Source of the DNA: Bacilli bacterium
Lineage (GTDB): Bacteria > Bacillota_I > Bacilli_A > RFN20 > CAG-826
DNA: 64,000 nucleotides
Assembly (NCBI GenBank): GCA_017477255.1
Contig: JAFUXB010000004.1
Location: 62,001 to 126,000, forward strand
Direction: 5' to 3'
The translations under genes were made by a program, and so were the position numbers. Positions within the stretch are counted from its first letter, which is position 1. Each line of letters starts with the position of its first letter. The notes under the pieces are model-generated. The model was not told the origin of the DNA. It did no database searches and worked only from the letters and a program-made list of their open reading frames with translations. Shown here piece after piece: positions 47,493 through 63,300 of the stretch.

Positions 47493-50147
47493 TTAATAAG
47501 TCCAATAATATTTATTAAATGTATAAGTTACAGTTGTTGAATATGAATGATGCCACTTATTATCTTCCCAAGTAGGAAGGATGCTAGAAGCATCAGTTTC
47601 AACACGAATTCTTCTTCTAGTATAAATTGCTTCCTCTCCTAAATTAATTAAAGTTTTAGGCATTTGGAGAGTTAAATCATATTTACCATAATCAATTGAG
47701 TTAGAATCATTAATTGCTCTAGAATTAAGAGTTGTTAATGTATTATCAAAGAATATATTAGTTACATAACTCATTCTATAAATTGCATCTTTTTCAATTC
47801 TTTCAACATTTAAAAATTTTAAGGCTTTAACGTGACCAATTTCATTATAAGCATAAGGTGCAATTATTTTTGCATCTAAAACAACTGTGTAATAAGAAGT
47901 TGTTCCATCTGTTTCTTCTGTATAACCTTGGTCATAACATTTATAAAGAATATCTAAATCTTTTCTTTTAATAATATAATCATTTGGTTTAATAAATACT
48001 TTATTTTCACTATTTACAGTAATTGTATTAGTGTTAGAAGTAAATGCACTATCTTCAATTCCTATTACTGTATCAGCAATATTAGTAAATGTATTTTTTA
48101 ATAGATAAACAGTTTTATCTTCAACATTTTTAAGTTCTGAAGCATTTGTAGCAAGTTTAGTTCCAGTAAATACATTTAAACCAACTTTAGTTAAAGTAGT
48201 AGGTAAAGCAACAGCTGAAGCTAAATTTGTAACACCAGCAAAAGCTTCAGTATCAATACATTTTAATTTTTGGTCTTCGTAATCATTATTTAATCCATAA
48301 CCATAATTAAAATCTACTTTAGTTAATGTTGAATTAGTAAATGCACCTTTAGCAATAAATTCAACTCCATAATCAACTTCTAAAGTTTTAGAAGTAGCTG
48401 ATTCAGGATTATTTTGTTTATAAATGATCATTGATCTTTTTGTTTCATTTCCTAAACAATATAAGCTAGGTCCCATATTTGAAACATAATATCCATCAAT
48501 ATTATTGGTACCATCGAGCATTTCAAGTCCATATTCTTCAATATTTATATCATCACCTGTTCCAAAAGTTAATTTCTTTAATCCTGGCATATTTGCAAAG
48601 CATCTATTACCTAATTTTTTAACTTCATCAAGAATAAATAATTCTTGAACACCTTCGCAACCTTCAAATGCTGATTCTCCTATTTCAGTAGTAGGATTTG
48701 TAGGATTATTAATAAATGAAACTGATCTTAAATTTTTAGCATTTTTAAATGCGTCTTTTTTGATATTTCCTCCATCAATAACGATTGAATGCATTGTTTC
48801 ACTAACATATTCTTCTCCACCAAATAGTTTTGAAGTAGAAGTTAATAAATCGCCACTAATAACAAGTGTTTTAAGGTGGTTACAGTTTAATGCACCATCT
48901 CTAATTGTTTCTAAATTATCATTAGTTAAATCTAAAATTGTATTAAATGATTGAACGACGTAAATAAGTTCAGTGTCATTTCCAATAAGTTTGTAATCAT
49001 TTAAAATTTTAAAGTGAGTATTTTTAGTGCTTACCATTACTTTAGTGATATTTTCACAACCAAAGAAGACATTATTTCCGATATATTCTATAGTTTCTGG
49101 AATATAAATTGAATTCATTTGCGTGTTATCTTTAAATGCTTCATCTTTAATTCCTATAACTGGTCTTCCTTCAAATTCACTAGGAATTACAATATTTTTA
49201 TCATCACCATAGAATTTTTTAACATAGAATGAAGCGTTTTCTGGTTGAATTTCAAATACGAAGCCTTTGTTTCTATAAGTTGGAGCATAATTTTCAACAA
49301 ATACTGCAGTATAAGTTACTTCACCTTTAACTTCAGTTAATGGTTTGTCCCAACCTAAAAATTCATAAGTTGTAGTAGCAGTTCCTGGTTTTTCTGGAGT
49401 AATTCCAGTGTATAGAGGAATTTCGCCATATAAAACTTCTTCTGATTGAAGAACTTGACCATCATAATTTATGAAAGTAACTTTATATTTTCTTGTTACT
49501 TGTTTATATGTTGCAGTAAAAGTTGTATTAACTTGAATATTTTCTAAAGGTTTATCCCATCCAGTAAATTCATAATTATATTGTTCATTTGATGGTTTAG
49601 TTGGAGTAGAACCTAAATAAACTGCATTTTTACCTTTATTTATTTCAGCTCTATAAAGTTCGGTGCCATCGAAGTTTTTAAATATAACTAAAACAGTTTC
49701 TATAGTAGGATCTATTGGATCTACTTCAGGAATTTCTTTAAAAATTACATCAACAATATTTTCACCTTCAACTAAATTAAATTCATAAGGAGCAGCTAAA
49801 GGTACACTATTGAGTCTAACTTCCTCAATTAAATAATTTTCTTTAGGAGTAATAGTTAAAGTAATTTTATCTCCAACAAGACCTTCTAAAGTGTTTGCTG
49901 TAACACTTCCCTCATCATGATTAAAGTTTAAAATAACTTTTCCTTTTAATTCTTCTGGAGCACTGTCTTTATCTTTAACACTACCCTTATTTTCAGTAGA
50001 ACCATCGCTATAAACAACGATTAATTCTTTATTTTCGTTAATATATGTATCTGTAATATATCTAGGATTATTTTTCTTACAAGAAAAAGACATAGAAGAA
50101 ATTAAGCTTAATCCAATTAAAACTAATAATTTTTTAAAGTGTTTCAT
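47493..50147 (-). CDS. BspA-type leucine-rich-repeat surface lipoprotein with InlB-type repeats
   Basis: This 884-residue lipoprotein has lipobox SFSC (Cys23). Next come two or three InlB B-repeat-like (Listeria-Bacteroides) modules (about 150-295), such as YKVTFINYDGQVLQSEEVLY and YEFLGWDKPL. A long series of BspA-type LRR_5 repeats (about 300-860) follows, for example VIGIKDEAFKDNTQMNSIYI. Such proteins are surface adhesins in gut and oral bacteria. SD AAGGAGG. It is 12 bp downstream of a related, frameshifted locus, so the two arose by duplication. Confidence 0.88.
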   Translation of the reverse strand: MKHFKKLLVLIGLSLISSMSFSCKKNNPRYITDTYINENKELIVVYSDGSTENKGSVKDKDSAPEELKGKVILNFNHDEGSVTANTLEGLVGDKITLTITPKENYLIEEVRLNSVPLAAPYEFNLVEGENIVDVIFKEIPEVDPIDPTIETVLVIFKNFDGTELYRAEINKGKNAVYLGSTPTKPSNEQYNYEFTGWDKPLENIQVNTTFTATYKQVTRKYKVTFINYDGQVLQSEEVLYGEIPLYTGITPEKPGTATTTYEFLGWDKPLTEVKGEVTYTAVFVENYAPTYRNKGFVFEIQPENASFYVKKFYGDDKNIVIPSEFEGRPVIGIKDEAFKDNTQMNSIYIPETIEYIGNNVFFGCENITKVMVSTKNTHFKILNDYKLIGNDTELIYVVQSFNTILDLTNDNLETIRDGALNCNHLKTLVISGDLLTSTSKLFGGEEYVSETMHSIVIDGGNIKKDAFKNAKNLRSVSFINNPTNPTTEIGESAFEGCEGVQELFILDEVKKLGNRCFANMPGLKKLTFGTGDDINIEEYGLEMLDGTNNIDGYYVSNMGPSLYCLGNETKRSMIIYKQNNPESATSKTLEVDYGVEFIAKGAFTNSTLTKVDFNYGYGLNNDYEDQKLKCIDTEAFAGVTNLASAVALPTTLTKVGLNVFTGTKLATNASELKNVEDKTVYLLKNTFTNIADTVIGIEDSAFTSNTNTITVNSENKVFIKPNDYIIKRKDLDILYKCYDQGYTEETDGTTSYYTVVLDAKIIAPYAYNEIGHVKALKFLNVERIEKDAIYRMSYVTNIFFDNTLTTLNSRAINDSNSIDYGKYDLTLQMPKTLINLGEEAIYTRRRIRVETDASSILPTWEDNKWHHSYSTTVTYTFNKYYWTY

Positions 50148-50159
50148 ATTTATTCCTCC

Positions 50160-52013
50160 TTATGCTCCATAATTCACTTCTACATAAGAACTTTGCCATT
50201 CGTAATTAAATAAAGAAGCAGGGGCTTCCTCTTTATTTTTCCACATATGGAAATTTAAAATTGCAAATGTATTAGCTCCAGAGCCAAGACTAAAAGCGCC
50301 AGTTCCAATGTTATAAAGGTTACTACAATAAAAACTAAATGTTAAATTAGTAGTTCCTGATTTATAGAATGCGTAAGATCCAATAAATTCAAGATTTCCT
50401 GGCATTGAAATATAGCTACCAGAAGTAAAATATTTATTTTTTAAATTTTGCATTTTTCCAAATCCACAAGAGCCAATATAAGTAATGTTATAAGGCATAT
50501 CTACATATGTATAATTTGTACAATAAAATGCTTTTCCACCTATATATTCAACTGGATTGTCATAACTTAAACTAGTGATTTTATATTCATTAGTGCCATT
50601 AAAAACTTTATATAAAACATGATTACTAGTTCCATATAAAGCATTATTTTGAACAACAAAGTTTTCATTTTCTGAATCTAATGAGAATGAGTGATATGCT
50701 TCAAGGGTATATCTAAAAAACATAATATCAATAAATCTTGTATCTTTTAAAATATTTGTAGAAGTGGCAGTTTTTGATGATCTAAATGCATAAAATTCAT
50801 TAATTACACCATTTCCATCATCAGTAGAAGAAATATAACGGATATCATCAATTACATTATTATCATATTCTTCATTATCTGCAATAAATGCTAATGGATC
50901 AACATCAGTTAAAGATTTTGGTAAAGCAAAATTAGTAACTTTACAATAAGAAAATGCCCTAAACCCAATTGTTTTTAAAGTATTTCCTTCAAAATTAACT
51001 TTTTTAATCCTTATATTATTTCTTAAAATTTCATCGTAAATTATAATTGTTCCTTCTTTAAATGTGATTTCATCACCTTTAAAAAATCTATCGATTTTAT
51101 AAGCAATTTGATAAGGATATGTGTCATTTCCAATATAACATATTCCATCAACTGGATTTCCTTCTAAAGAAATACAGTTTTGGAAAATATTTTTTCCAAT
51201 CTTATTAATATTTAGTTCTTTAAATCCAAGTTTTACGTTTTCTAAAGATATACAATCATTAAACGCATAATTTTCAATATCAGTAACAGTAGAAGGAATA
51301 ACTACACTTTCTAAATTAGAACATCCAGTAAAAGCGTATTCTCCAATAGTTTCAATTGGATTTTCTAAATTATTTTCTAAAACTACTGATTCTAATGTAG
51401 TCATATTTTTAAAGAAATTTTCTCCAATATTTCCACCATTATAGAAAACTGTTCTTAGTTTAGTTGGGAATTGACTATAATCTTCAAATTCAGTAGAGAA
51501 TAAATAATTTAATGAATATGTTACGTTATTATCACCAATTTGATTATATTTTAATATTTCTAAATTTGATGAATTAAATGCACCCATTTCAATTACATAA
51601 TCAAATTCATTAGTTCTTGCTTCAAGTTCATAAGATCCATCAAGTTTAGCAGGATAAGCAACTAAGGTAAGATAAGGAGATTTAGTAAATAAAGCATCAT
51701 TTTTAATAAATAAATTTTCATTTCCTTCAGCTATATTAAATCTTTCTATATTAGAGCAGCCATAAATTGCTCCTCTTTCTATTTCATTAATATATTTACC
51801 AAAAGTAATAGAAGTAATTAAATTATTTCCAGCAAAAGCACCTTCTTTTACTAAAGTAACAGGCACTCCTTGGAACGAATCAGGAATAATTACATTTAAA
51901 TCTTCACCTCTATATTCAGTAACAGCAAATTCATCTTGGCTAGTTTCTTCATTATAAAAATGTTGAAATACTAGTCCATAAGAAAAATAAGAAGGAGTAT
52001 TATTTCTCTTCAT
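50160..52013 (-). CDS. BspA-type LRR protein, C-terminal portion of a frameshifted gene
   Basis: The 617-residue frame has no signal peptide. It begins exactly where the downstream paralogue moves from its InlB-type modules into the LRR domain: SYFSYGLVFQHFYNEETSQ here against TYRNKGFVFEIQPENASF there. LRR_5 repeats fill the rest (IPDSFQGVPVTLVKEGAFAG and so on). Its ATG overlaps the stop of the upstream lipoprotein frame by 4 bp (ATGA). A one-base insertion near 52015 would fuse the two into one normal surface lipoprotein. On its own this product would stay in the cytosol. It is either a pseudogene fragment, a phase-variable state, or a recoding site. Confidence 0.75.
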   Translation of the reverse strand: MKRNNTPSYFSYGLVFQHFYNEETSQDEFAVTEYRGEDLNVIIPDSFQGVPVTLVKEGAFAGNNLITSITFGKYINEIERGAIYGCSNIERFNIAEGNENLFIKNDALFTKSPYLTLVAYPAKLDGSYELEARTNEFDYVIEMGAFNSSNLEILKYNQIGDNNVTYSLNYLFSTEFEDYSQFPTKLRTVFYNGGNIGENFFKNMTTLESVVLENNLENPIETIGEYAFTGCSNLESVVIPSTVTDIENYAFNDCISLENVKLGFKELNINKIGKNIFQNCISLEGNPVDGICYIGNDTYPYQIAYKIDRFFKGDEITFKEGTIIIYDEILRNNIRIKKVNFEGNTLKTIGFRAFSYCKVTNFALPKSLTDVDPLAFIADNEEYDNNVIDDIRYISSTDDGNGVINEFYAFRSSKTATSTNILKDTRFIDIMFFRYTLEAYHSFSLDSENENFVVQNNALYGTSNHVLYKVFNGTNEYKITSLSYDNPVEYIGGKAFYCTNYTYVDMPYNITYIGSCGFGKMQNLKNKYFTSGSYISMPGNLEFIGSYAFYKSGTTNLTFSFYCSNLYNIGTGAFSLGSGANTFAILNFHMWKNKEEAPASLFNYEWQSSYVEVNYGA

Positions 52014-53763: not shown

Positions 53764-53955
53764 ATGGAATTCAAGGAAAAGTTAGTTTATGTTAGAGCAA
53801 AATTAAATCTTACTCAAGAGGAATTAGCGAAAAAACTTAATGTATCTTTCCCTACAATTTCAAGATGGGAAAACGGAAAGACAAGGCCTACAAAAAAAGG
53901 ACTTATGACTTTTGATGTTTTTTGCAAAGAAAACAATATTATTTGGGAGGATTAA
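53764..53955 (+). CDS. XRE-type HTH regulator of the defence-type operon
   Basis: The start at 53764 is set by SD GAGG 8 bp upstream; an in-frame ATG at 53731 has none. The 63-residue protein is a single XRE domain: KLVYVRAKLNLTQEELAKKL then NVSFPTISRWENGKTRP. It is 2 bp from the next start. It probably regulates the operon that it heads, as XRE genes often do at restriction-modification loci (C-proteins), but the operator cannot be identified. Confidence 0.85.
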   Translation: MEFKEKLVYVRAKLNLTQEELAKKLNVSFPTISRWENGKTRPTKKGLMTFDVFCKENNIIWED

Positions 53956-53957
53956 TT

Positions 53958-56234
53958 ATGGCTACTAATTGGGATGATTTGGTCTCTGGTGAAGAACTTC
54001 TTAAAGCTACAAAAAAGAGAAAAAATAAATTTATTGAGCAAAAAGTGTCTGCAGATAAAATTGATGAATTTATCAATAAAGGTTGGGAAGTATTTAAAGA
54101 ATATAAAAATGGTTCAGCTCTTGTGAAAAAAGAAAAATCTGTAGGAGATCTATTTGAAAATGAAGTTTGGCTAATATTCCAAAAAATGGGATTTAAGGTG
54201 ATGAACGCCACAAATAAATTTAAATTAGATTATTCTGATGTTTCGTCTAAGCAAATTGATATAATTGCTATTGATGATGAAATTTGCTTACTAATTGAGT
54301 GTAAGGCAACTGAAAAAGAAGATAATACTAAAACTTGGAAGACTGAACTTGAATCAATTAACGGAAACTTCAAAGGGTTATCCAATGAAGTTAGAAAGAA
54401 ATATCCTAAAGTAAGAGTTAAGTATATTTTCGCTACAAAAAATTTCGTTATTGGTGATGCTGATATTAAGAGAATGGAAGATTTTAGAATCGCTAATTTC
54501 GATTATGAAAAAGTAAGATATTACAATGATTTGTCAGATCATTTAGGTTCTGCAGCTAGATATCAATTATTGGGCAATTTATTTGCAAAAACTGAAATTA
54601 AAGGTATGAATTCAAGTGTTCCTGCAATTGAAGGAAAAATGGGAAACAAGACTTATTATACTTTTTTAATTGAGCCAGAAAGACTGTTAAAGCTAGCATA
54701 TATTTTACATAGAAATAAAGCAAATCATAAATTAATGCCTACATATCAAAGACTAATTAAAAAAGATAGATTAAAAGCTATTAGAAAATTTGTTAATGAA
54801 GGAGGGTATTTTCCTAACTCTTTAATTGTATCCATAGATACAAATGGAAGAGGAGTTGTTTTTGAACCATCCTCAACCAGAACTGATAATAACCTTTCAA
54901 GAATGGGTACGTTAAAGCTTCCAAAGACTTATCAATCTTTATATGTAATTGATGGACAACATAGATTATACGGTTATTCTGATTCAAAATTTGCTTCATG
55001 TAATTCAGTTCCTGTTGTGGCTTTTGTTGATATGCAAAAACACGAACAAGTTAAACTGTTTATGGACATAAATGAAAATCAAAAATCAGTACCTAAAGGT
55101 CTTAGAAACACATTAAATATTGATTTATTATGGAATGCTGAATTATATGCTCAAAGGCAGGAAGCATTACGATTAGATTTAGGACAACAATTGGGTGAAG
55201 ATACAAAGTCTCCTTTATACGGTAGAGTTGTTACAGGTGAAGATTTATCAAATACAAAGCGTTGTATAACTCTAGATTATATTAACGATGCTTTTAAGCA
55301 ATCAAATTTCTTTAATATTTACAAAAAAGGTAAGAACGAAATACTGACTCCTGGTACATTTGATAAGACAGATAATGATGAGACAGAGGCTATATTATTT
55401 CCATTTATATCTAAGTGCTTTAAAACAATTAAGGATTATTGTTCAGAAGAACGGGATAGAGGTAGTGAGGGATTTTTAACAATTAACAATACCACATTTG
55501 CCTTGATTAAAGTTTTTAATGATATAGTCAATATCCAATTAAAGAAAGAAAATAAGGTGATAGTTGATGATGGTGATTCTTTCTTTAAAGAATGTGAAGG
55601 CATGTTATTAAATTTAGCTGATACAATTAATACTTTAGACCTTGATACGATAAATGCAATTAAAACTGCGAAAGGCGGAGCAGCTAAGAAAACATCATGG
55701 AATAAATTAAGGGTAGCTTTTAATACCAAGTTCCCTGATTTTACATATCCAGAACTTGAAGAGTATGTCAAGGAAAATTGTGTTAATAATAATCCGTATG
55801 CTTCACAATATATTGGAGAAATACTCGATGAAATCAAGAGACGTTTGAAAGATAAAATTGGAAATGACTCTCAATGGATGCACAAGTATTTACCTGAAAA
55901 ATTAAGAAATGATTTAATATCTAAAGTTGCAATTGAAAAAGTAAATAGACAAATTCAAGGTAATGATGAGGAAGTCGATGAATGGGACTATATTTCTTTT
56001 AATGAAATCAAACAAATTGCAAACTATGGTACAAACTGGTCAGCTTTTTGCAGTGATGTTTTAGTTTTACCATCCAATAAGATGAATAAAATTAATACCT
56101 TGCAATGGCTTACTGATTTAGAATCAGCTAAAAATAGAATCAGTTTAAATCAATCTATTGTTACAAGTGAGTTTGAATCAATTAAGAAAATATATAGTGA
56201 ATTTATTAAAGATGAAAATGGTGAGGCTATCTAA
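53958..56234 (+). CDS. PD-(D/E)XK nuclease-DGQHR (DndB-like) fusion protein
   Basis: The start at 53958 follows SD GGGAGG. The 758-residue protein has an N-terminal restriction-endonuclease-like domain (about 60-180) with Asp101 and Glu114-Cys-Lys116 in QIDIIAIDDEICLLIECKA, the PD-(D/E)XK core. A DGQHR domain follows with VIDGQHRLYGY (330-340; DGQHR 332-336) and FMDINENQKSVPKGL. DGQHR proteins include DndB, which controls DNA phosphorothioation, but no dnd modification genes are present. Here it is coupled (1-bp overlap) to a Dam-type methylase, so it may sense or cut DNA according to methylation state (inference). Confidence 0.82.
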   Translation: MATNWDDLVSGEELLKATKKRKNKFIEQKVSADKIDEFINKGWEVFKEYKNGSALVKKEKSVGDLFENEVWLIFQKMGFKVMNATNKFKLDYSDVSSKQIDIIAIDDEICLLIECKATEKEDNTKTWKTELESINGNFKGLSNEVRKKYPKVRVKYIFATKNFVIGDADIKRMEDFRIANFDYEKVRYYNDLSDHLGSAARYQLLGNLFAKTEIKGMNSSVPAIEGKMGNKTYYTFLIEPERLLKLAYILHRNKANHKLMPTYQRLIKKDRLKAIRKFVNEGGYFPNSLIVSIDTNGRGVVFEPSSTRTDNNLSRMGTLKLPKTYQSLYVIDGQHRLYGYSDSKFASCNSVPVVAFVDMQKHEQVKLFMDINENQKSVPKGLRNTLNIDLLWNAELYAQRQEALRLDLGQQLGEDTKSPLYGRVVTGEDLSNTKRCITLDYINDAFKQSNFFNIYKKGKNEILTPGTFDKTDNDETEAILFPFISKCFKTIKDYCSEERDRGSEGFLTINNTTFALIKVFNDIVNIQLKKENKVIVDDGDSFFKECEGMLLNLADTINTLDLDTINAIKTAKGGAAKKTSWNKLRVAFNTKFPDFTYPELEEYVKENCVNNNPYASQYIGEILDEIKRRLKDKIGNDSQWMHKYLPEKLRNDLISKVAIEKVNRQIQGNDEEVDEWDYISFNEIKQIANYGTNWSAFCSDVLVLPSNKMNKINTLQWLTDLESAKNRISLNQSIVTSEFESIKKIYSEFIKDENGEAI

Positions 56235-57064
56235 TGGAAACAATATTAAAATGGGCTGGAGGGAAAAGATTATTAATAAATCAAATATCAAAAATAATAA
56301 ATCCTGACCAGTTAAAAAAAGACAATGGACATTACTATGAACCATTTATTGGCGGTGGCGCTATTGCCTTTTCATTAGAATTGAATGAAACCGTCATTAA
56401 TGATTCGAATAAAGAATTAATTAATATGTATAATGTTATAAAAAACAATCCTAGCGAATTAATTGAATTACTAAAAATTCATCAATCTAAATATTCTGAT
56501 GCTTATTATGAAAGAATTAGAAAAATGGACCGAAGTAAAAATTATGATAATATTTCGAATGTTGAAAAGGCTGCAAGATTTATATTCCTAAATAAAACTT
56601 GCTACAATGGCTTGTATAGAGTTAATTCTAGCGGACATTTTAATGTTCCAAAAGGAAAATATAAAAATCCAGATATTATTATGGAAAAAAAGATAAATGG
56701 ACTTAGTAGATTACTCAATGAAAAATCGTTCAAAATAACTTGTTTAGATTTTGAAAAAGCAGTAGAGGATGCAACCAAAGGAGACGTAGTATATTTTGAT
56801 CCACCATATGATTATGAAGAAACTGGTTTCACATCTTATTCAGCAATAGGATTTAACAAATCTGATTTAGTAAGATTAAAAAATTTATGTGACAGATTAA
56901 TTGATAGAGGCTGTAGAGTAATAATTAGCAATAATGACACTAAGTTTGTCAATGAATTGTTTAAATGCAATGGATATAAGATAGTTCATATTGAAGCTTT
57001 TAGATTTATAAGTTGTGATGGTTCAAAGAGATCTAAAGTGAAAGAGGTTATTATTTATGGATAA
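56234..57064 (+). CDS. dam: Dam-type DNA adenine methylase
   Basis: This 276-residue alpha-type N6-adenine methyltransferase has KWAGGKRLL (6-14) and EPFIGGGA (36-43), which bind S-adenosylmethionine. It also has NKTCYNGLYRVN (120-131), the Dam/DpnM target-site segment, and catalytic DPPY (189-192). The likely target is GATC, as for Dam and DpnM, but that is inference. It overlaps the DGQHR fusion by 1 bp and the next gene by 8 bp. Its location in an accessory operon points to a modification enzyme and not the replication-linked housekeeping Dam. Confidence 0.9.
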   Translation: METILKWAGGKRLLINQISKIINPDQLKKDNGHYYEPFIGGGAIAFSLELNETVINDSNKELINMYNVIKNNPSELIELLKIHQSKYSDAYYERIRKMDRSKNYDNISNVEKAARFIFLNKTCYNGLYRVNSSGHFNVPKGKYKNPDIIMEKKINGLSRLLNEKSFKITCLDFEKAVEDATKGDVVYFDPPYDYEETGFTSYSAIGFNKSDLVRLKNLCDRLIDRGCRVIISNNDTKFVNELFKCNGYKIVHIEAFRFISCDGSKRSKVKEVIIYG

Positions 57065-57512
57065 GAATATACCATTTCCACAAGCTGATGATTTTAATAA
57101 AGTCATATCATTGTTAAATATTGAAGATGAAAGCAATTTGAAAAATAAAAACAAGATAAGTTTATTATTTGATGGAATAGCAGATAGACAGGTTCAGTAT
57201 TATTTATCTGCATGTATGTATTTAGGCTTTGTTGATGAAAAAAAAGAATTCACATTATTGGGCAAAAAACTTAGAAAACTCTCAAGAACCGAACAAGAAA
57301 TAGAATTAGCGCAAATTATTGTATCACATGATGTTTTTGGGCATGTATATTTTTTAGAAAAACGTCTTGGAACGAAATTAGATAGAAGCGATGTTATTGA
57401 ACTGCTTAAAACATATGTCAGTTTTGAAAGCGAAGAAATGTATAAAAGACGATCTCATACCATTATTAAATGGATTGAGTGGATAAATGATAAATTTAAT
57501 GATGAATTTTAG
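57057..57512 (+). CDS. winged-helix-like protein associated with the methylase
   Basis: This 151-residue protein begins IPFPQADDFNKVISLLN and continues with RQVQYYLSACMYLGFVDEKK. A helical wing region ends RRSHTIIKWIEWI. The pattern resembles the winged-helix modules found beside or fused to GATC-type restriction enzymes and other defence proteins; I would not name the family with certainty. It overlaps dam by 8 bp and the next small frame by 26 bp. It could guide DNA recognition for the nuclease or act as a second regulator. Confidence 0.6.
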   Translation: MDKNIPFPQADDFNKVISLLNIEDESNLKNKNKISLLFDGIADRQVQYYLSACMYLGFVDEKKEFTLLGKKLRKLSRTEQEIELAQIIVSHDVFGHVYFLEKRLGTKLDRSDVIELLKTYVSFESEEMYKRRSHTIIKWIEWINDKFNDEF

Positions 57513-57684
57513 GAAAATAACATTGTTTATATTACTATCTATTCCTTTAGTAATGTTGTGTTCTTGCAGTAACAAAAATGTTATATCAAACAATCCGTAT
57601 ACAAAAGAACCTTCAATAACAATACTATCAACTGATTCAGAGGAAGATGATTCAAGTACGAGTAAAATTTTAGAAAGGGGATAA
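57487..57684 (+). CDS. tiny lipoprotein in the defence-type operon
   Basis: This 65-residue frame has a hydrophobic signal and lipobox LCSC (Cys27 from the first Met), then a short, Ser/Asp/Glu-rich tail. Possible starts are 57487, 57499 and 57502; none has a strong SD, and the frame overlaps the previous gene by 26 bp. Translation is therefore likely coupled or uncertain. A surface-tethered peptide in an otherwise DNA-directed operon is unexpected. It may be an immunity or envelope-sensing component or an accidental frame. Confidence 0.5.
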   Translation: MINLMMNFRKITLFILLSIPLVMLCSCSNKNVISNNPYTKEPSITILSTDSEEDDSSTSKILERG

Positions 57685-57689
57685 AGCAG

Positions 57690-59711
57690 ATGATAAAAAT
57701 TGATTTTCACATTCATACAATTAAAACAGACTTAGATTCTGCATTTGATTTTAGTCTTGATAAAATTTCAGAATATGTGCAAAAAAAGAAAATTAATGCA
57801 ATAGCCATTACTAATCATAATTTATTTGATAGAGCAAATTTTGATCTTATAAAAATTCACTTGAAAGATGTAGCTGTTTATCCTGGTATAGAAGTAACTC
57901 TTGAAGGTGGTCATTTAATTGTTGTTGCTCCTTTTACTAAAATAGAAGAATTTGAAGAGCAATGTAAAAAAATACATGATGAGTTCAAAGAAAAGAATGA
58001 TATTTCTCTTGATTTCTTTATGGATATATTTTCTAATCATGAGGAGTATTTATTAATCCCACATTATGATAAAAATCCAAAAATACAAAAATTTATTTTA
58101 GATAGAATTGGCTCTAGTTTTATCTGTGGAGAGGTTTGCAGTCCTAAAAAATTTATAAGATTATATAAAGAAAAAGGAACTTTGACACCTTTACTCTTTA
58201 GTGACATGAGGATGGCTGATGATATCCCATTATTAAACAAACAAACATATATTGATACTGACTCTACTGATTTTTACTCAATGAAGGAAGCAATTCGTGA
58301 TAAAGAAAAGGTTTATATTAATGACAAAAAGAAGAGGGACTTATTTCCAATTTTAGATGACGGGACATTAGCTTCTTCTGGGTTAAATATTATTTTTGGT
58401 AAGAGATCATCAGGAAAAACATACACTTTAGATCGAATAAATGAAAATTTTGATAATGTTAAATATATTAAACAGTTTGATTTGATTGAAAAGGATAAAG
58501 AAGCTGCTAACAAAAAATTTGATGAAAGTATGTCAAATGATAGAAGTATTTATAGCGATGAATATCTGGCTGAATTTAAGGAAATTGTAAATAATGTTTT
58601 AAGTATTAATTATAAAGAACAAGAAACAAAGCTTAGCGATTATGTTTCTTCATTAGTTGAATTTGCTGTTGATATGGATAATCATGATGCTTTTTCTAAA
58701 GTCCCAGTTTTTAGTGAACAAAAATTTGAATATGTGATAGATAAAAAACCTAAAAACATTATTGATTCTATTTCAAATTTACTAGATTCTGGAACATACG
58801 AAAAAATAATTAATAAGTACATTTCCAATGAGAATCTTATTAAAATGCTAAATGAATTCGTCAAAATTCATAGGGAAAAGAAGAGAGAAGAATTAATATG
58901 TAAACAAGCAAATGAATTGATTGATAAGATTCAACGTGCTTTATCAATTGAGTCATCTCAAAATGCTATTCCATCATTTGATATTAATCAATATGCTACG
59001 GATGTAATAAAGAAGAATTTGTTTGTAAAGATAGCTGACATAATTAAAAAACCTAAACTTTTATTAGAAAATCAAATTGGAAAATTTAAAATAGTAGCTA
59101 AAAGAGAACCGTTTGGATCTGCAAAAGAACTACAAAATTTTGTTGGAAAAAAGGGAGAATACTCATCATCATATAATTTATATGATAATCCTTTCGATTA
59201 TTTAAATTCTTTTGAAGATAAACCGCATATACAAAAAGATCAAATTTATAAGTATTTTGTTAGAATCAATTATCAGGTATTAAATGCCAATGGCTATCCT
59301 GTTTCTGGTGGTGAACGTGCTGAATTTAATTTAGAAAAGAATTTAAGTGATGCTGAGAACTATGATATGTTGTTGATTGATGAGCCCGAATCATCATTTG
59401 ATAATATATTTTTAAGAACTGATATTGTTGATAAAATTACATCAATAAGTAAAAAAATACCTGTATTTGTATCAACACATAATAATGTTCTTGGTGGAAA
59501 TTTAAATTCAAACTATATTTTGTATACTGAAGCAGTTAATACAGCAGATGGAACTATGTTTTCTATATACGGAGGAAACAGAGAGAATAAAGTCTTAACT
59601 TCTGTAAATAATACTCAAATTAAGAATTATGTAGTAATGATTAATAGCTTAGAAGGAGGAGAGGAATCATATGTTGAGCGAAAAGAAACCTATAAAAATC
59701 TTAAAGATTAA
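57690..59711 (+). CDS. PHP-phosphoesterase/ABC-type ATPase fusion (TrlF-like)
   Basis: This 673-residue protein has an N-terminal PHP domain: DFHIHT (5-10, metal His7 and His9), TNHN (41-44) and GIEVT (66-70, Glu68). The C-terminal SMC/RecF-like ATPase has Walker A GKRSSGKT (237-244), a helical insertion (about 270-480), ABC signature VSGGERAE (538-545), Walker B LLIDEPESSFD (561-571) and a final FVSTHNN H-loop. Such fusions (TrlF type) occur in phage-defence loci and probably hydrolyse nucleic acid or a nucleotide upon ATP-dependent sensing. SD AAGGGG. It overlaps the next gene by 41 bp. Confidence 0.82.
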   Translation: MIKIDFHIHTIKTDLDSAFDFSLDKISEYVQKKKINAIAITNHNLFDRANFDLIKIHLKDVAVYPGIEVTLEGGHLIVVAPFTKIEEFEEQCKKIHDEFKEKNDISLDFFMDIFSNHEEYLLIPHYDKNPKIQKFILDRIGSSFICGEVCSPKKFIRLYKEKGTLTPLLFSDMRMADDIPLLNKQTYIDTDSTDFYSMKEAIRDKEKVYINDKKKRDLFPILDDGTLASSGLNIIFGKRSSGKTYTLDRINENFDNVKYIKQFDLIEKDKEAANKKFDESMSNDRSIYSDEYLAEFKEIVNNVLSINYKEQETKLSDYVSSLVEFAVDMDNHDAFSKVPVFSEQKFEYVIDKKPKNIIDSISNLLDSGTYEKIINKYISNENLIKMLNEFVKIHREKKREELICKQANELIDKIQRALSIESSQNAIPSFDINQYATDVIKKNLFVKIADIIKKPKLLLENQIGKFKIVAKREPFGSAKELQNFVGKKGEYSSSYNLYDNPFDYLNSFEDKPHIQKDQIYKYFVRINYQVLNANGYPVSGGERAEFNLEKNLSDAENYDMLLIDEPESSFDNIFLRTDIVDKITSISKKIPVFVSTHNNVLGGNLNSNYILYTEAVNTADGTMFSIYGGNRENKVLTSVNNTQIKNYVVMINSLEGGEESYVERKETYKNLKD

Positions 59712-59982
59712 AGATGGGAAAGGCTATTATTTAGATAAAAACGGAAATTATGTTGAAGTTGATAAGGTTGATAGAGATTCTTTGTTATATCTTATAAATT
59801 TAGTGATTAATAGTGAAGTCGAAATTGAAACATATGATGAATCTCTAATTTTAAACAAAGTTCATCAAATTATTTATAAAGAGATTTCTCAAAAAATACA
59901 AACTTTAAATACAAGTAAGTTGACACTTTTATCTAATATAGATACTGAATATGCTGACTTGATTAACAAGTATAAAGATTAG
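59671..59982 (+). CDS. small partner protein of the PHP-ATPase, unrecognised
   Basis: The 103-residue protein starts inside the ATPase gene (41-bp overlap) with a strong SD, AAGGAGGAGAGG, so it is real. A beta-rich start, IKILKIKDGKGYYLDKNGNY, precedes a helical C-terminus rich in Lys and Ile. No family is recognised. Small proteins co-translated with such ATPases are often inhibitors or subunits. A weak hairpin, GTTTAAT/ATTAAAC (59995-60015), follows the stop. Confidence 0.65.
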   Translation: MLSEKKPIKILKIKDGKGYYLDKNGNYVEVDKVDRDSLLYLINLVINSEVEIETYDESLILNKVHQIIYKEISQKIQTLNTSKLTLLSNIDTEYADLINKYKD

Positions 59983-60053
59983 ATTTAGTAATTGGTTTAA
60001 TTCAAATTATTAAACTCTGTGAATTGGTAGTGAAATAGTGGATCAAATTATAA

Positions 60054-60224
60054 AAAATTATAATCGTTGTGTGCAAAGACTATTATGACAATTTTAAAGT
60101 CATAGATGAAGATGTAGAATTATATGGTAAATATACTCATTTATTTGTTTTTAGATGCGTAATGGATAAGCAAATAAAAACTGATAAAGCAAGCAGGAGT
60201 AGGTCATTTGTATCCAAACCTTAA
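60054..60224 (+). pseudogene. decayed coding remnant
   Basis: A 56-codon frame without ATG (GTG at 60069 possible) contains YYDNFKVIDEDVELYGKYTH then LFVFRCVMDK and ends in TAA. Another short frame just upstream ends at 60088. No SD is seen. It looks like the tail of a broken gene lying in the 386-bp gap between the operon and the next module. Family not recognised. Confidence 0.3.
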
Positions 60225-60250
60225 AGTGGAGACTTTTTCTTATTACACGT

Positions 60251-60352
60251 AAGGGTGTTTCAAGGGTGTTTCACTTTTTCGTTATGGTGTTTCAAAATTT
60301 AAGGGATGTTTCATTTGTATTACCATACTTGTCCTTATACATATTGAAACAA
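60251..60352 (+). other. structured/iteron element C before the Sau3AI-like gene
   Basis: Four near-direct repeats occur: AAGGGTGTTTCA (60251-60262), AAGGGTGTTTCA (60262-60273), ATGGTGTTTCA (60284-60294) and AAGGGATGTTTCA (60301-60313). Then come TTGTATTA (60315-60322), 18 bp and ATATTGAAACAA (60341-60352). Element B at 61764 has the same order with identical 18-bp spacing. A hairpin, AAAGT/ACTTT, lies just upstream near 60223-60236. Confidence 0.65.
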
Positions 60353-60368
60353 GGAAGATGATCCATAC

Positions 60369-60751
60369 ATGAATAAAACAATAGAATTAATAATTGATAA
60401 TACAATAGTAGATGTTAATTGGTTAGATAATGATTCTGTTACAGCCTTGACTAATCTTGCAAAAGATGGAATCATTAGTTTTGATAAAGTATTTTTTGAA
60501 AAGCACCAAACAAAGTAGTAGATGGTACTATTAAAGAAATGCACGAAGGATGTGCAGATTTTGTTAGAAGAGGCGAAGCTTTCTATTATGATACTAAGGG
60601 AAAAATAAAGGATAAATTTCCTAAAGAAGAAAGAAATTCAAACGGTGTTTGTCATGTAAGACCACATGCAAGAGTAGGATTGGATCACTATGAATTACCA
60701 ATAGCTGATAAAGTGATAGGAATAACCTCATATACAAAGCAGAGTTTTTAG
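60369..60751 (+). pseudogene. Sau3AI/MutH-like restriction nuclease, frameshifted
   Basis: The ATG at 60369 opens a 49-codon frame ending FFEKHQTK and a TAG at 60516. A different frame then continues from about 60500 to 60751. Its VCHVRPHARVGLDHYELP then IADKVIGITSYTKQSF resembles the C-terminus of Sau3AI/MutH-type GATC endonucleases (CHVRPH...TKQCFW). The break falls just after a T6 run and an A4 run, so a one-base loss is the simplest cause. The product ends at TKQSF, slightly shorter than relatives. As the Dam-type methylase gene lies 3 kb upstream, this may be a dead GATC restriction partner. Confidence 0.6.
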
Positions 60752-60782
60752 TTTAATAAGGATTTTGTTGAAAAAATGATAA

Positions 60783-61715
60783 ATGGTGCTGAAGAATGGT
60801 GATTTTTGTATGGATACTAAAAATGAAGAGTTATTTAAAAGATATTTAAATCCAACGAGAGGTTCCCATTATGTAAAAAGAGAGTATTTATCTAATTGGT
60901 CTAGTGATGGAACGCACATTTTAACATGTAGAGATAAAACTAATTTTGTTTCAAACAATTTGAAAGATGTCTGTACTGAAAGAGATATGTATAAAATGGA
61001 AAAATTAACTAATCTCGAATTAATGCAAGTACAAACTTTTTATAAAAACTCAAAACCTCGGGTAAAGGAAATAAATGATAGTTTTATTGGTATGTGGCAA
61101 CTTGCTTGTTCAATTATGGAAAACAAAGACAATCCAGAAGACAAAAACTTGGCAAATAAAATAGCTATTCAGTGCGGAGAAGATTTACAATCTAATTTTG
61201 AATCCACTTTAGATGATTGTATAAAAAAATGCTTGTTAAATTGTGAGGAAAGTTTTTTGGACCAAGATGACAAATTACTAAATTTTGGGCTTTATCTTTT
61301 TAGTCAATATTTAAGAACTCAAAAACAAAAAAACAAAGTAATAAATAACCTAGAAAACGCTAATCATTTTGAAAATATTAAAGGTCAATTGAATCCTGAA
61401 AAATTGTGGAAAGTACTGATTATTATTATGACAAATATGGCGTCTTATGAATTATTATCTAGAAAAGAAACAAACCATATTTGTTTTATCAAAAGTAATC
61501 AAAAAGCATTAATTACTAGTGATCAACCAGTTGTAAATATTGCGAAAGATATTGACCATGATTATGTAAAATTCTATTATCCTATTTCTCCATCAGTTTC
61601 TATAATATTTCCTGTTGAAAAGTTTTCAATAATTGAAGACGATATTAGCTTAATAAAGAAAATGAATGATGTAATTATAAATAATAGTTATAGAATGTTT
61701 TTTAAATTAAAATAA
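60783..61715 (+). CDS. DUF4238-like protein
   Basis: This protein has up to 310 residues; the ATG at 60810 (MDTKNEELFK) is an equally possible start, and neither has a good SD. GSHYVKREYLSNWSSDG near the N-terminus and QKALITSDQPVVNIAKD with YYPISPSVSIIFPVEKF near the C-terminus match the DUF4238 pattern (HYVPxxYLxxF...LITSDNPV...PLS). The family is found in accessory regions of many bacteria and has been linked to phage defence; its activity is unknown. It is flanked by elements C and B and the nuclease pseudogene. Confidence 0.7.
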   Translation: MVLKNGDFCMDTKNEELFKRYLNPTRGSHYVKREYLSNWSSDGTHILTCRDKTNFVSNNLKDVCTERDMYKMEKLTNLELMQVQTFYKNSKPRVKEINDSFIGMWQLACSIMENKDNPEDKNLANKIAIQCGEDLQSNFESTLDDCIKKCLLNCEESFLDQDDKLLNFGLYLFSQYLRTQKQKNKVINNLENANHFENIKGQLNPEKLWKVLIIIMTNMASYELLSRKETNHICFIKSNQKALITSDQPVVNIAKDIDHDYVKFYYPISPSVSIIFPVEKFSIIEDDISLIKKMNDVIINNSYRMFFKLK

Positions 61716-62451: not shown

Positions 62452-63300
62452 ATGAAAACAACAATCAAATTATTTTTAATGGATGGAACTGCAACAGGAA
62501 GGATTAAATGTAGTTTTTCTTCTGGATGGAATGGAATCGGGTATAAAATTCCAAAATCAGATTTAGATAAATGTGATAATATCACTTTTTTAAAGCAAGC
62601 AGGTGTATATTTTTTATTTGGGTGCGATGAAGAAGACAGTGAATTTGTATATGTAGGACAAGGAAATAAGAGACAAAATGGGCAAGGAGTACTTAGTCGA
62701 ATAAAAGAGGCTCATGATAGCGTTCCATTATGGAATGCTTGTGTAGTTTTTGTTTCTTCAGGAGAAGATATAGGTCCTACTGAATTAAATTATCTTGAAA
62801 ATAGATTTACTAATATGGCGTCTGTGTCAGGAAGATATCTAGTTAAAAATAATAAAAATCCAAGCTCATCTCAGCTTTCAGAAGAAGATGAAGCGGATAT
62901 GTCATTATTCATCGAAAATTCAAAATTAATTTTAAGTGCATTAGGTTATAGAGTTCTTGAGGAGCCTCTTGTGACAAACAATGATAAACAGACTACATAT
63001 ACATATTCTTATAACGGAAAAAAAGCAAAAGGAGTTCTCAGTGATGATGGGTTCGTTTTACTTAAAGGAAGTCAACTTAATGACGAAAGTTCTTTTGCAA
63101 AAAGATGGATTAAAAAAATACCGGCACAAAGAAATTTATATAAAAACAAAATAGAAAACTTGGTCACAACAGAGGATATACTTTTTAAAAGTTCATCTGG
63201 CGCAGCATGCTTTTGTTCTGGGCAATCTGTTTCCGGACCTAAAAATTGGGTTGATTCTGATGGAATAAGCCTAGAAAATAAAATTAAAAAAAATGTTTAA
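62452..63300 (+). CDS. GIY-YIG nuclease family protein with DUF4357
   Basis: This 282-residue protein has an N-terminal strand region, then GVYFLFG (51-57) and VYVGQG (66-71), the GIY-YIG pair. Arg83 in LSRIKEAH and a Glu in LNYLENRF are the expected catalytic residues. The C-terminus (about 200-272) has GKKAKGVLSDDGFVLLKGSQ, typical of DUF4357. Such proteins are presumed DNA nucleases in restriction or defence loci. SD TGGAGG is strong. It is the last complete gene, downstream of element B and the 96-bp repeat. Confidence 0.85.
   Translation: MKTTIKLFLMDGTATGRIKCSFSSGWNGIGYKIPKSDLDKCDNITFLKQAGVYFLFGCDEEDSEFVYVGQGNKRQNGQGVLSRIKEAHDSVPLWNACVVFVSSGEDIGPTELNYLENRFTNMASVSGRYLVKNNKNPSSSQLSEEDEADMSLFIENSKLILSALGYRVLEEPLVTNNDKQTTYTYSYNGKKAKGVLSDDGFVLLKGSQLNDESSFAKRWIKKIPAQRNLYKNKIENLVTTEDILFKSSSGAACFCSGQSVSGPKNWVDSDGISLENKIKKNV

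Follow-up and report, generated by a model that had tools for sequence, protein, structure and literature searches.

The seven co-directional genes at positions 53764-59982 of the window, the 64,000-nucleotide stretch of a Bacilli genome analysed here, are best read as two adjacent and independently mobile modules. The first (module 1, 53958-57512) is a restriction-modification (R-M)-like set built on a PD-(D/E)XK-DGQHR fusion protein and a Dam methylase, and the second (module 2, 57690-59982) is a PHP-ATPase pair of the PDC-M49 type. We give this reading, together with the mechanisms proposed for the two modules, a probability of roughly two in three. The split into two modules is firm, and the seven-gene combination looks like an accidental adjacency within a defence island.

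All seven genes lie on the + strand, with spacing identical to that in the initial annotation. A 63-aa XRE/Cro-type HTH regulator (53764-53955; HTH_3, 7.6e-14) is followed after a gap of 2 bp by the PD-(D/E)XK-DGQHR fusion, a candidate restriction subunit (53958-56234; TIGR03187, 6.2e-46; DndB PF14072, 5.2e-16) with an ATG start and an AGGAGG-like ribosome site. The fusion gene overlaps by 1 bp the gene for Dam, a DpnM-like, D12-class DNA adenine methylase (56234-57064; TIGR00571, 4.8e-78), which in turn overlaps by 8 bp that of a DUF7226 protein, a predicted DNA-site recognition subunit (57057-57512; PF23871, 2.5e-22). An overlap of 26 bp leads into a 65-aa lipoprotein-like ORF with the lipobox LCSC and no family match (57487-57684). 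After a gap of 5 bp comes PDC-M49A, a PHP phosphoesterase/nuclease domain joined to an ABC-type ATPase (57690-59711; PADLOC PDC-M49A, full length, 1.9e-219), and a final overlap of 41 bp joins it to its 103-aa small partner, PDC-M49B (59671-59982; PADLOC PDC-M49B, 9.6e-25). Such packing speaks for co-transcription but does not make the seven genes a single functional or heritable unit. None of the six closest DGQHR-Dam-DUF7226 loci has the XRE gene upstream, and a copy 72% identical to it in a sister genus of the same family (G006) overlaps a C5-methylase/MutH scar instead; it is a local regulator outside the conserved core.

The pairing of the fusion with an adenine methylase recurs across bacteria. 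A family alignment run against 84,980 species genomes, together with two plasmid loci, yielded 58 full-length fusions in addition to that of the window. In 36 of these 58 loci, the neighbouring gene on the same strand encodes a D12 adenine methylase, and in 35 pairs the two genes overlap or lie within 50 bp of each other, with both gene orders represented. A 37th locus (L049) has its D12 methylase 884 bp away on the opposite strand, while the methylase slot is taken by an MT-A70 methylase in L063 and by a divergent D12 enzyme in L053. The linkage extends over eight phyla (Bacillota, Bacteroidota, Actinomycetota, Pseudomonadota, Gemmatimonadota, Chloroflexota, Planctomycetota and Myxococcota), and no D12 neighbour was found in the 20 weaker DGQHR loci (L070-L089). 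Protein distances of fusion and methylase are correlated (Mantel r 0.62, exceeded in 0 of 2000 permutations), with shared ancestry contributing to this value. The fusion-methylase pair is also carried by prophage-like contigs; among viral contigs, the family alignment recovered five full-length homologues, and a search with the single fusion protein gave no match. The initial annotation had proposed all seven genes as one undescribed defence operon; of these, the fusion and Dam do form a recurrent and apparently undescribed set. Its suggestion that methylation replaces phosphorothioation as the mark likewise fits the direct adjacency to D12 methylases.

Within the fusion tree the window falls in a monophyletic clade of seven loci (SH-aLRT 99) that share the order DGQHR-Dam-DUF7226. 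DUF7226 is absent from most DGQHR-Dam loci and therefore cannot be their sole source of specificity. Among 392 genomes sampled from the phylum, the full fusion was found in one, the window's own. In three Bacilli loci (L014, L015 and L019), a C5 methylase and a MutH-domain enzyme resembling a Sau3AI-like R-M system follow DGQHR-Dam-DUF7226 (the MutH domain was checked in L015), so that two R-M-like systems stand side by side.

The fusion protein consists of an N-terminal PD-(D/E)XK nuclease (D101, E114, K116), a DGQHR/ParB-fold NTP-binding domain (motif at 332-336) and a helical C-terminal half. In its AlphaFold (AF2) model (pLDDT 90), residues 62-194 match PD-(D/E)XK enzymes, namely AF1548 (Z 12.1), Can2/Card1 (about 9-10), EndoMS (8.2) and FokI (7.1). 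For residues 225-376 the matches are CTP- or CDP-bound ParB/Noc (Z about 8.2; ~95 residues at rmsd 2.3-2.7) and also sulfiredoxin (Z 6.0). Positions invariant in 48 homologues include YQR 263-265, VIDGQHRL 330-337, F368, N372 and Q375, and the QR, DGQHR and FxxxN motifs have been reported before in DGQHR and GmrS domains (PMC4619093). The fusion had no significant match by PDB sequence search, and Foldseek alone gave no E below 0.001 for either the fusion or the DUF7226 model. The fold assignments come from VIA structure comparison and cover the families in the VIA listing, with plasmid rows left out of the structure-prediction input. We consider the fold matches of the fusion and of DUF7226 to be of moderate strength: the Z values are near the level at which common arrangements score, and the gene context agrees with them.

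The nuclease domain is retained in nearly all copies of the fusion. In a tree of 55 fusions, the D/E/K residues are intact in 28 of the 36 D12-linked rows (window included) and in 4 of the 19 others, a difference that is descriptive only, since it rests on five independent contrasts and is not significant after phylogenetic correction. Because the nuclease site is degraded in eight of the 36 D12-linked fusions, cleavage may not be universal. A threonine replaces the lysine in 12 of the 19 non-D12 rows, and most of that clade adjoins radical-SAM and GHKL-ATPase genes. We further note that this Dam-less clade (L008, L009, L035, L038, L042, L050, L065 and relatives), found mostly on alphaproteobacterial plasmids and chromosomes, has as neighbours a radical-SAM protein, a GHKL-type ATPase, often a second DGQHR protein, and a PIN_8 protein; it looks like a separate undescribed gene set.

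The methylase of the window keeps its motifs WAGGKR, PFIGGGA and DPPY intact, and its best PDB sequence match is M.DpnII (2dpm, 1.6e-69). The site of M.DpnII is GATC, and because this is the closest solved methylase, GATC is a reasonable first guess for the site of Dam. In the genome parts examined, GATC occurs at 0.67 of expectation and CATG at 0.60; since CATG is even lower, the under-representation of GATC singles out no site.

The DUF7226 model (AF2, pLDDT 92.8) shares a predicted fold with the FokI recognition domain (residues 5-241, D1-D2; Z 8.4 over 144 aa) and with BrxA (Z 7.6), which itself resembles the FokI recognition domain (PMC9240713). Unlike these, DUF7226 is a stand-alone small protein in a methylase operon, with about 10-16% identity to them; a PDB sequence search with it returned no significant match. 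The window protein also matches the C-terminal part of a PADLOC type II REase model. In L094-L097 and L100, DUF7226 forms the C-terminus of DUF6996-DUF6997-DUF7226 proteins that match this type of model and lie beside D12 methylases, while in L099, L102 and L110 it is fused to a D12 methylase and in L104 it stands alone after one. The window set shares with the type II systems carrying such an enzyme (PADLOC REase_II PDLC03513) a D12 methylase directly beside a DUF7226-bearing gene; it differs from them in having DUF7226 as a protein of its own and, as nuclease, the PD-(D/E)XK-DGQHR fusion, which lacks DUF6996 and DUF6997. DUF7226 seems to be a recognition module shared by the window set and type II REases. 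The literature searched, which left most subscription journals outside its scope, contained no paper naming DUF7226, and the likeness to FokI and BrxA offers a concrete prediction for the family, DNA-site recognition in restriction systems. As a separate observation, the D12-DUF7226 fusions of L099 and L102 (genomes G030 and G217) adjoin a homologue of PADLOC PDC-M33C, so the candidate system PDC-M33 is possibly methylase-linked too.

The best reading of module 1 is an R-M-like system made of the DGQHR nuclease and Dam, with or without DUF7226. In common with type II R-M, a methylase with intact motifs adjoins the gene of a nuclease whose D101, E114 and K116 are complete; the ParB-type fold suggests a dependence on NTP that would be atypical for that type. 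Dam would methylate adenine in a short site, possibly GATC, and so mark self. DUF7226, whose predicted shape recalls the two-HTH recognition part of FokI, would read the site, perhaps together with the helical C-terminal half of the fusion. The PD-(D/E)XK nuclease of the fusion would cut DNA whose site lacks the mark, and a ParB-type switch in the DGQHR domain may gate the cut through NTP binding or hydrolysis. On this reading, module 1 would have an antiphage effect. A stronger proposal, which we hold as tentative, is that module 1 represents a distinct R-M class, in which a PD-(D/E)XK nuclease fused to a ParB-CTPase-fold DGQHR clamp serves as the NTP-gated engine of restriction, and methylase and nuclease take their specificity from one exchangeable subunit, the FokI/BrxA-like DUF7226 protein. 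If so, DndB-type proteins would act as switches that sense DNA modification in general and not phosphorothioation alone.

An unlikely alternative is that module 1 is a modification module, in which Dam marks the element's own DNA for anti-restriction or epigenetic purposes and the DGQHR protein acts as a DndB-like, NTP-dependent regulator of dam with residual nuclease. DndB is reported to act as a repressor in an ATP-dependent manner, and binding of ATP and GTP has been described for a DndB-like protein (PMC12704722); the degraded nuclease sites among the D12-linked fusions and the presence of the pair on prophage-like contigs are consistent with such a role. The nuclease site is nonetheless intact in most D12-linked fusions, DUF7226 elsewhere belongs to restriction enzymes or their methylases, and the three Bacilli loci described above have other R-M genes as neighbours.

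A BREX-like exclusion of phage DNA, proceeding without classical site cleavage, appears somewhat less likely again. Here DUF7226 and the ParB-fold clamp would detect unmethylated sites, slide or spread along the DNA and block replication, with the nuclease as an auxiliary. That BrxA, itself like the FokI recognition domain, is the next structural match of DUF7226, and that the DGQHR domain matches CTP-bound ParB clamps, would suit this arrangement, but the retention of the nuclease domain in nearly all copies speaks against it, and BrxC, PglX and PglZ were not seen when the gene list of the window was inspected.

Most of what is known about DGQHR proteins comes from phosphorothioate (Dnd) and deazaguanine (Dpd) systems, and DndB has variously been called a repressor, a nucleotide-binding protein and a nuclease. 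The fusion shares with DndB and DpdB the DGQHR/ParB-fold domain (TIGR03187), and the window differs in having a methylase and a fused nuclease; the DpdB model matches at 4.3e-20 with 71.9 bits, below its 300-bit equivalog cut-off, and no dndC or dndD match was found in the source assembly, which is only 53% complete. With the type IV enzyme GmrSD, module 1 shares the combination, in a single polypeptide, of a nuclease and a ParB/Srx-fold NTPase that carries a DGQ(Q/H)R motif (PMC4619093). GmrSD has a C-terminal HNH nuclease, is modification-dependent and acts without a methylase, whereas the fusion of the window has an N-terminal PD-(D/E)XK domain and is methylase-linked; neither of the GmrSD domains DUF262 and DUF1524 (HNH) is among its Pfam matches. 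As a set, module 1 corresponds to no system in PADLOC or NCBIfam, and no paper joining DGQHR to adenine methylases was found in the literature searched, with REBASE and most subscription journals outside its scope. Module 1 is thus apparently an undescribed R-M variant. Since the DGQHR domain here shares a polypeptide with a nuclease and, in many phyla, is encoded next to an ordinary adenine methylase, simple genetics in dam-minus E. coli can test its role.

Module 2 is already catalogued in PADLOC, as the candidate system PDC-M49. The window pair has the same A and B genes at full length with the same overlapping junction, and only the neighbours differ. PDC-M49A carries the Walker A motif GKRSSGKT, the signature SGGE and the Walker B motif LLIDEPE, and PDC-M49B lies directly 3' of the ATPase gene, overlapping it, in the full-length pairs examined. 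The initial annotation had called the protein a TrlF-like PHP-ATPase. The TrlF model NF045780 matches only partially (residues 3-467) with 67 bits against a curated cut-off of 350, and we therefore do not file the protein as TrlF/Ppl. It resembles the Ppl/TrlF PHP-ATPases in its N-terminal PHP domain plus ATPase, and differs from them in being shorter, in scoring below the cut-off and in having a constant small partner. Ppl, a PHP exonuclease that also carries an NTPase domain, is released when nucleotides are depleted and attacks 3' ends (review PMC12904381); by analogy, the PDC-M49 pair may degrade DNA ends under phage-induced stress. PDB sequence search gave no significant match for the PHP-ATPase, and no paper naming PDC-M49 was found in the literature searched, most subscription journals being outside its scope.

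The independence of the two modules is seen from both sides. No PHP gene lies within the flanks of any of the 58 other fusions (some flanks being short where contigs end), and none of the other full-length PHP pairs examined is accompanied by DGQHR. The closest of these is G006, which aligns to window positions 57547-60345 with 94.9% identity over 2,799 bp and has no DGQHR genes. Two further genomes of the class (L113 and L114) have the PHP pair and lack DGQHR, and on Enterococcus, Staphylococcus, Rhizobium and Phaeobacter plasmids the pair stands alone, with no adjoining DGQHR or Dam gene. The split into two modules follows from these observations, and the initial annotation's single seven-gene operon including the PHP-ATPase gives way to two adjacent systems, DGQHR-Dam and the PHP-ATPase. 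A composite operon, with the DGQHR nuclease and the PHP-ATPase as a pair of effectors that both rely on the Dam mark, as the common direction and exact overlaps of the seven genes might suggest, is very improbable when neither partner keeps the other's company in any of these genomes and plasmids.

The homology block of G006 starts inside the 65-aa lipoprotein-like ORF, which has a homologous frame there and thus seemingly travels with the PHP module in this bacterial family. No such ORF is found upstream of the PHP genes on the plasmids examined; it perhaps serves the PHP module as a leader in this family alone. Directly upstream of the PHP unit, G006 carries an ApeA-like HEPN gene, then the C5-methylase/MutH scar, in which 21 codons from the start of a C5 methylase are joined to the last 31 of a MutH/Sau3AI-type enzyme, and then the XRE gene. 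In the window, just 3' of the PHP pair, lies the C-terminus of a MutH/Sau3AI-type enzyme as a relic with in-frame stops (60494-60769; tblastn 7.6e-10). The PHP pair thus adjoins different relics of the same R-M kind in the two genomes, and the locus looks like a site of R-M gene exchange.

Besides this broken Sau3AI-type relic, the defence island contains a DUF4238 protein and a PDC-S14 homologue. The DUF4238 gene (60783-61715) is downstream of PDC-M49, and a DUF4238 gene is also found near PDC-M49 on the Rhizobium plasmid (L011). The homologue of the PADLOC candidate PDC-S14 (62452-63300; 1.3e-77) has DUF4357 at its C-terminus. A stretch of at least 51 kb of the contig (C7) that includes this locus (window 29539-64000) recurs inverted on another contig (C3) at 99.99% identity, which is probably redundant assembly of one region, or else a recent duplication of very large size. 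Two large leucine-rich-repeat (BspA-like) surface lipoproteins, assigned by eye, flank the island at 47493-52013.
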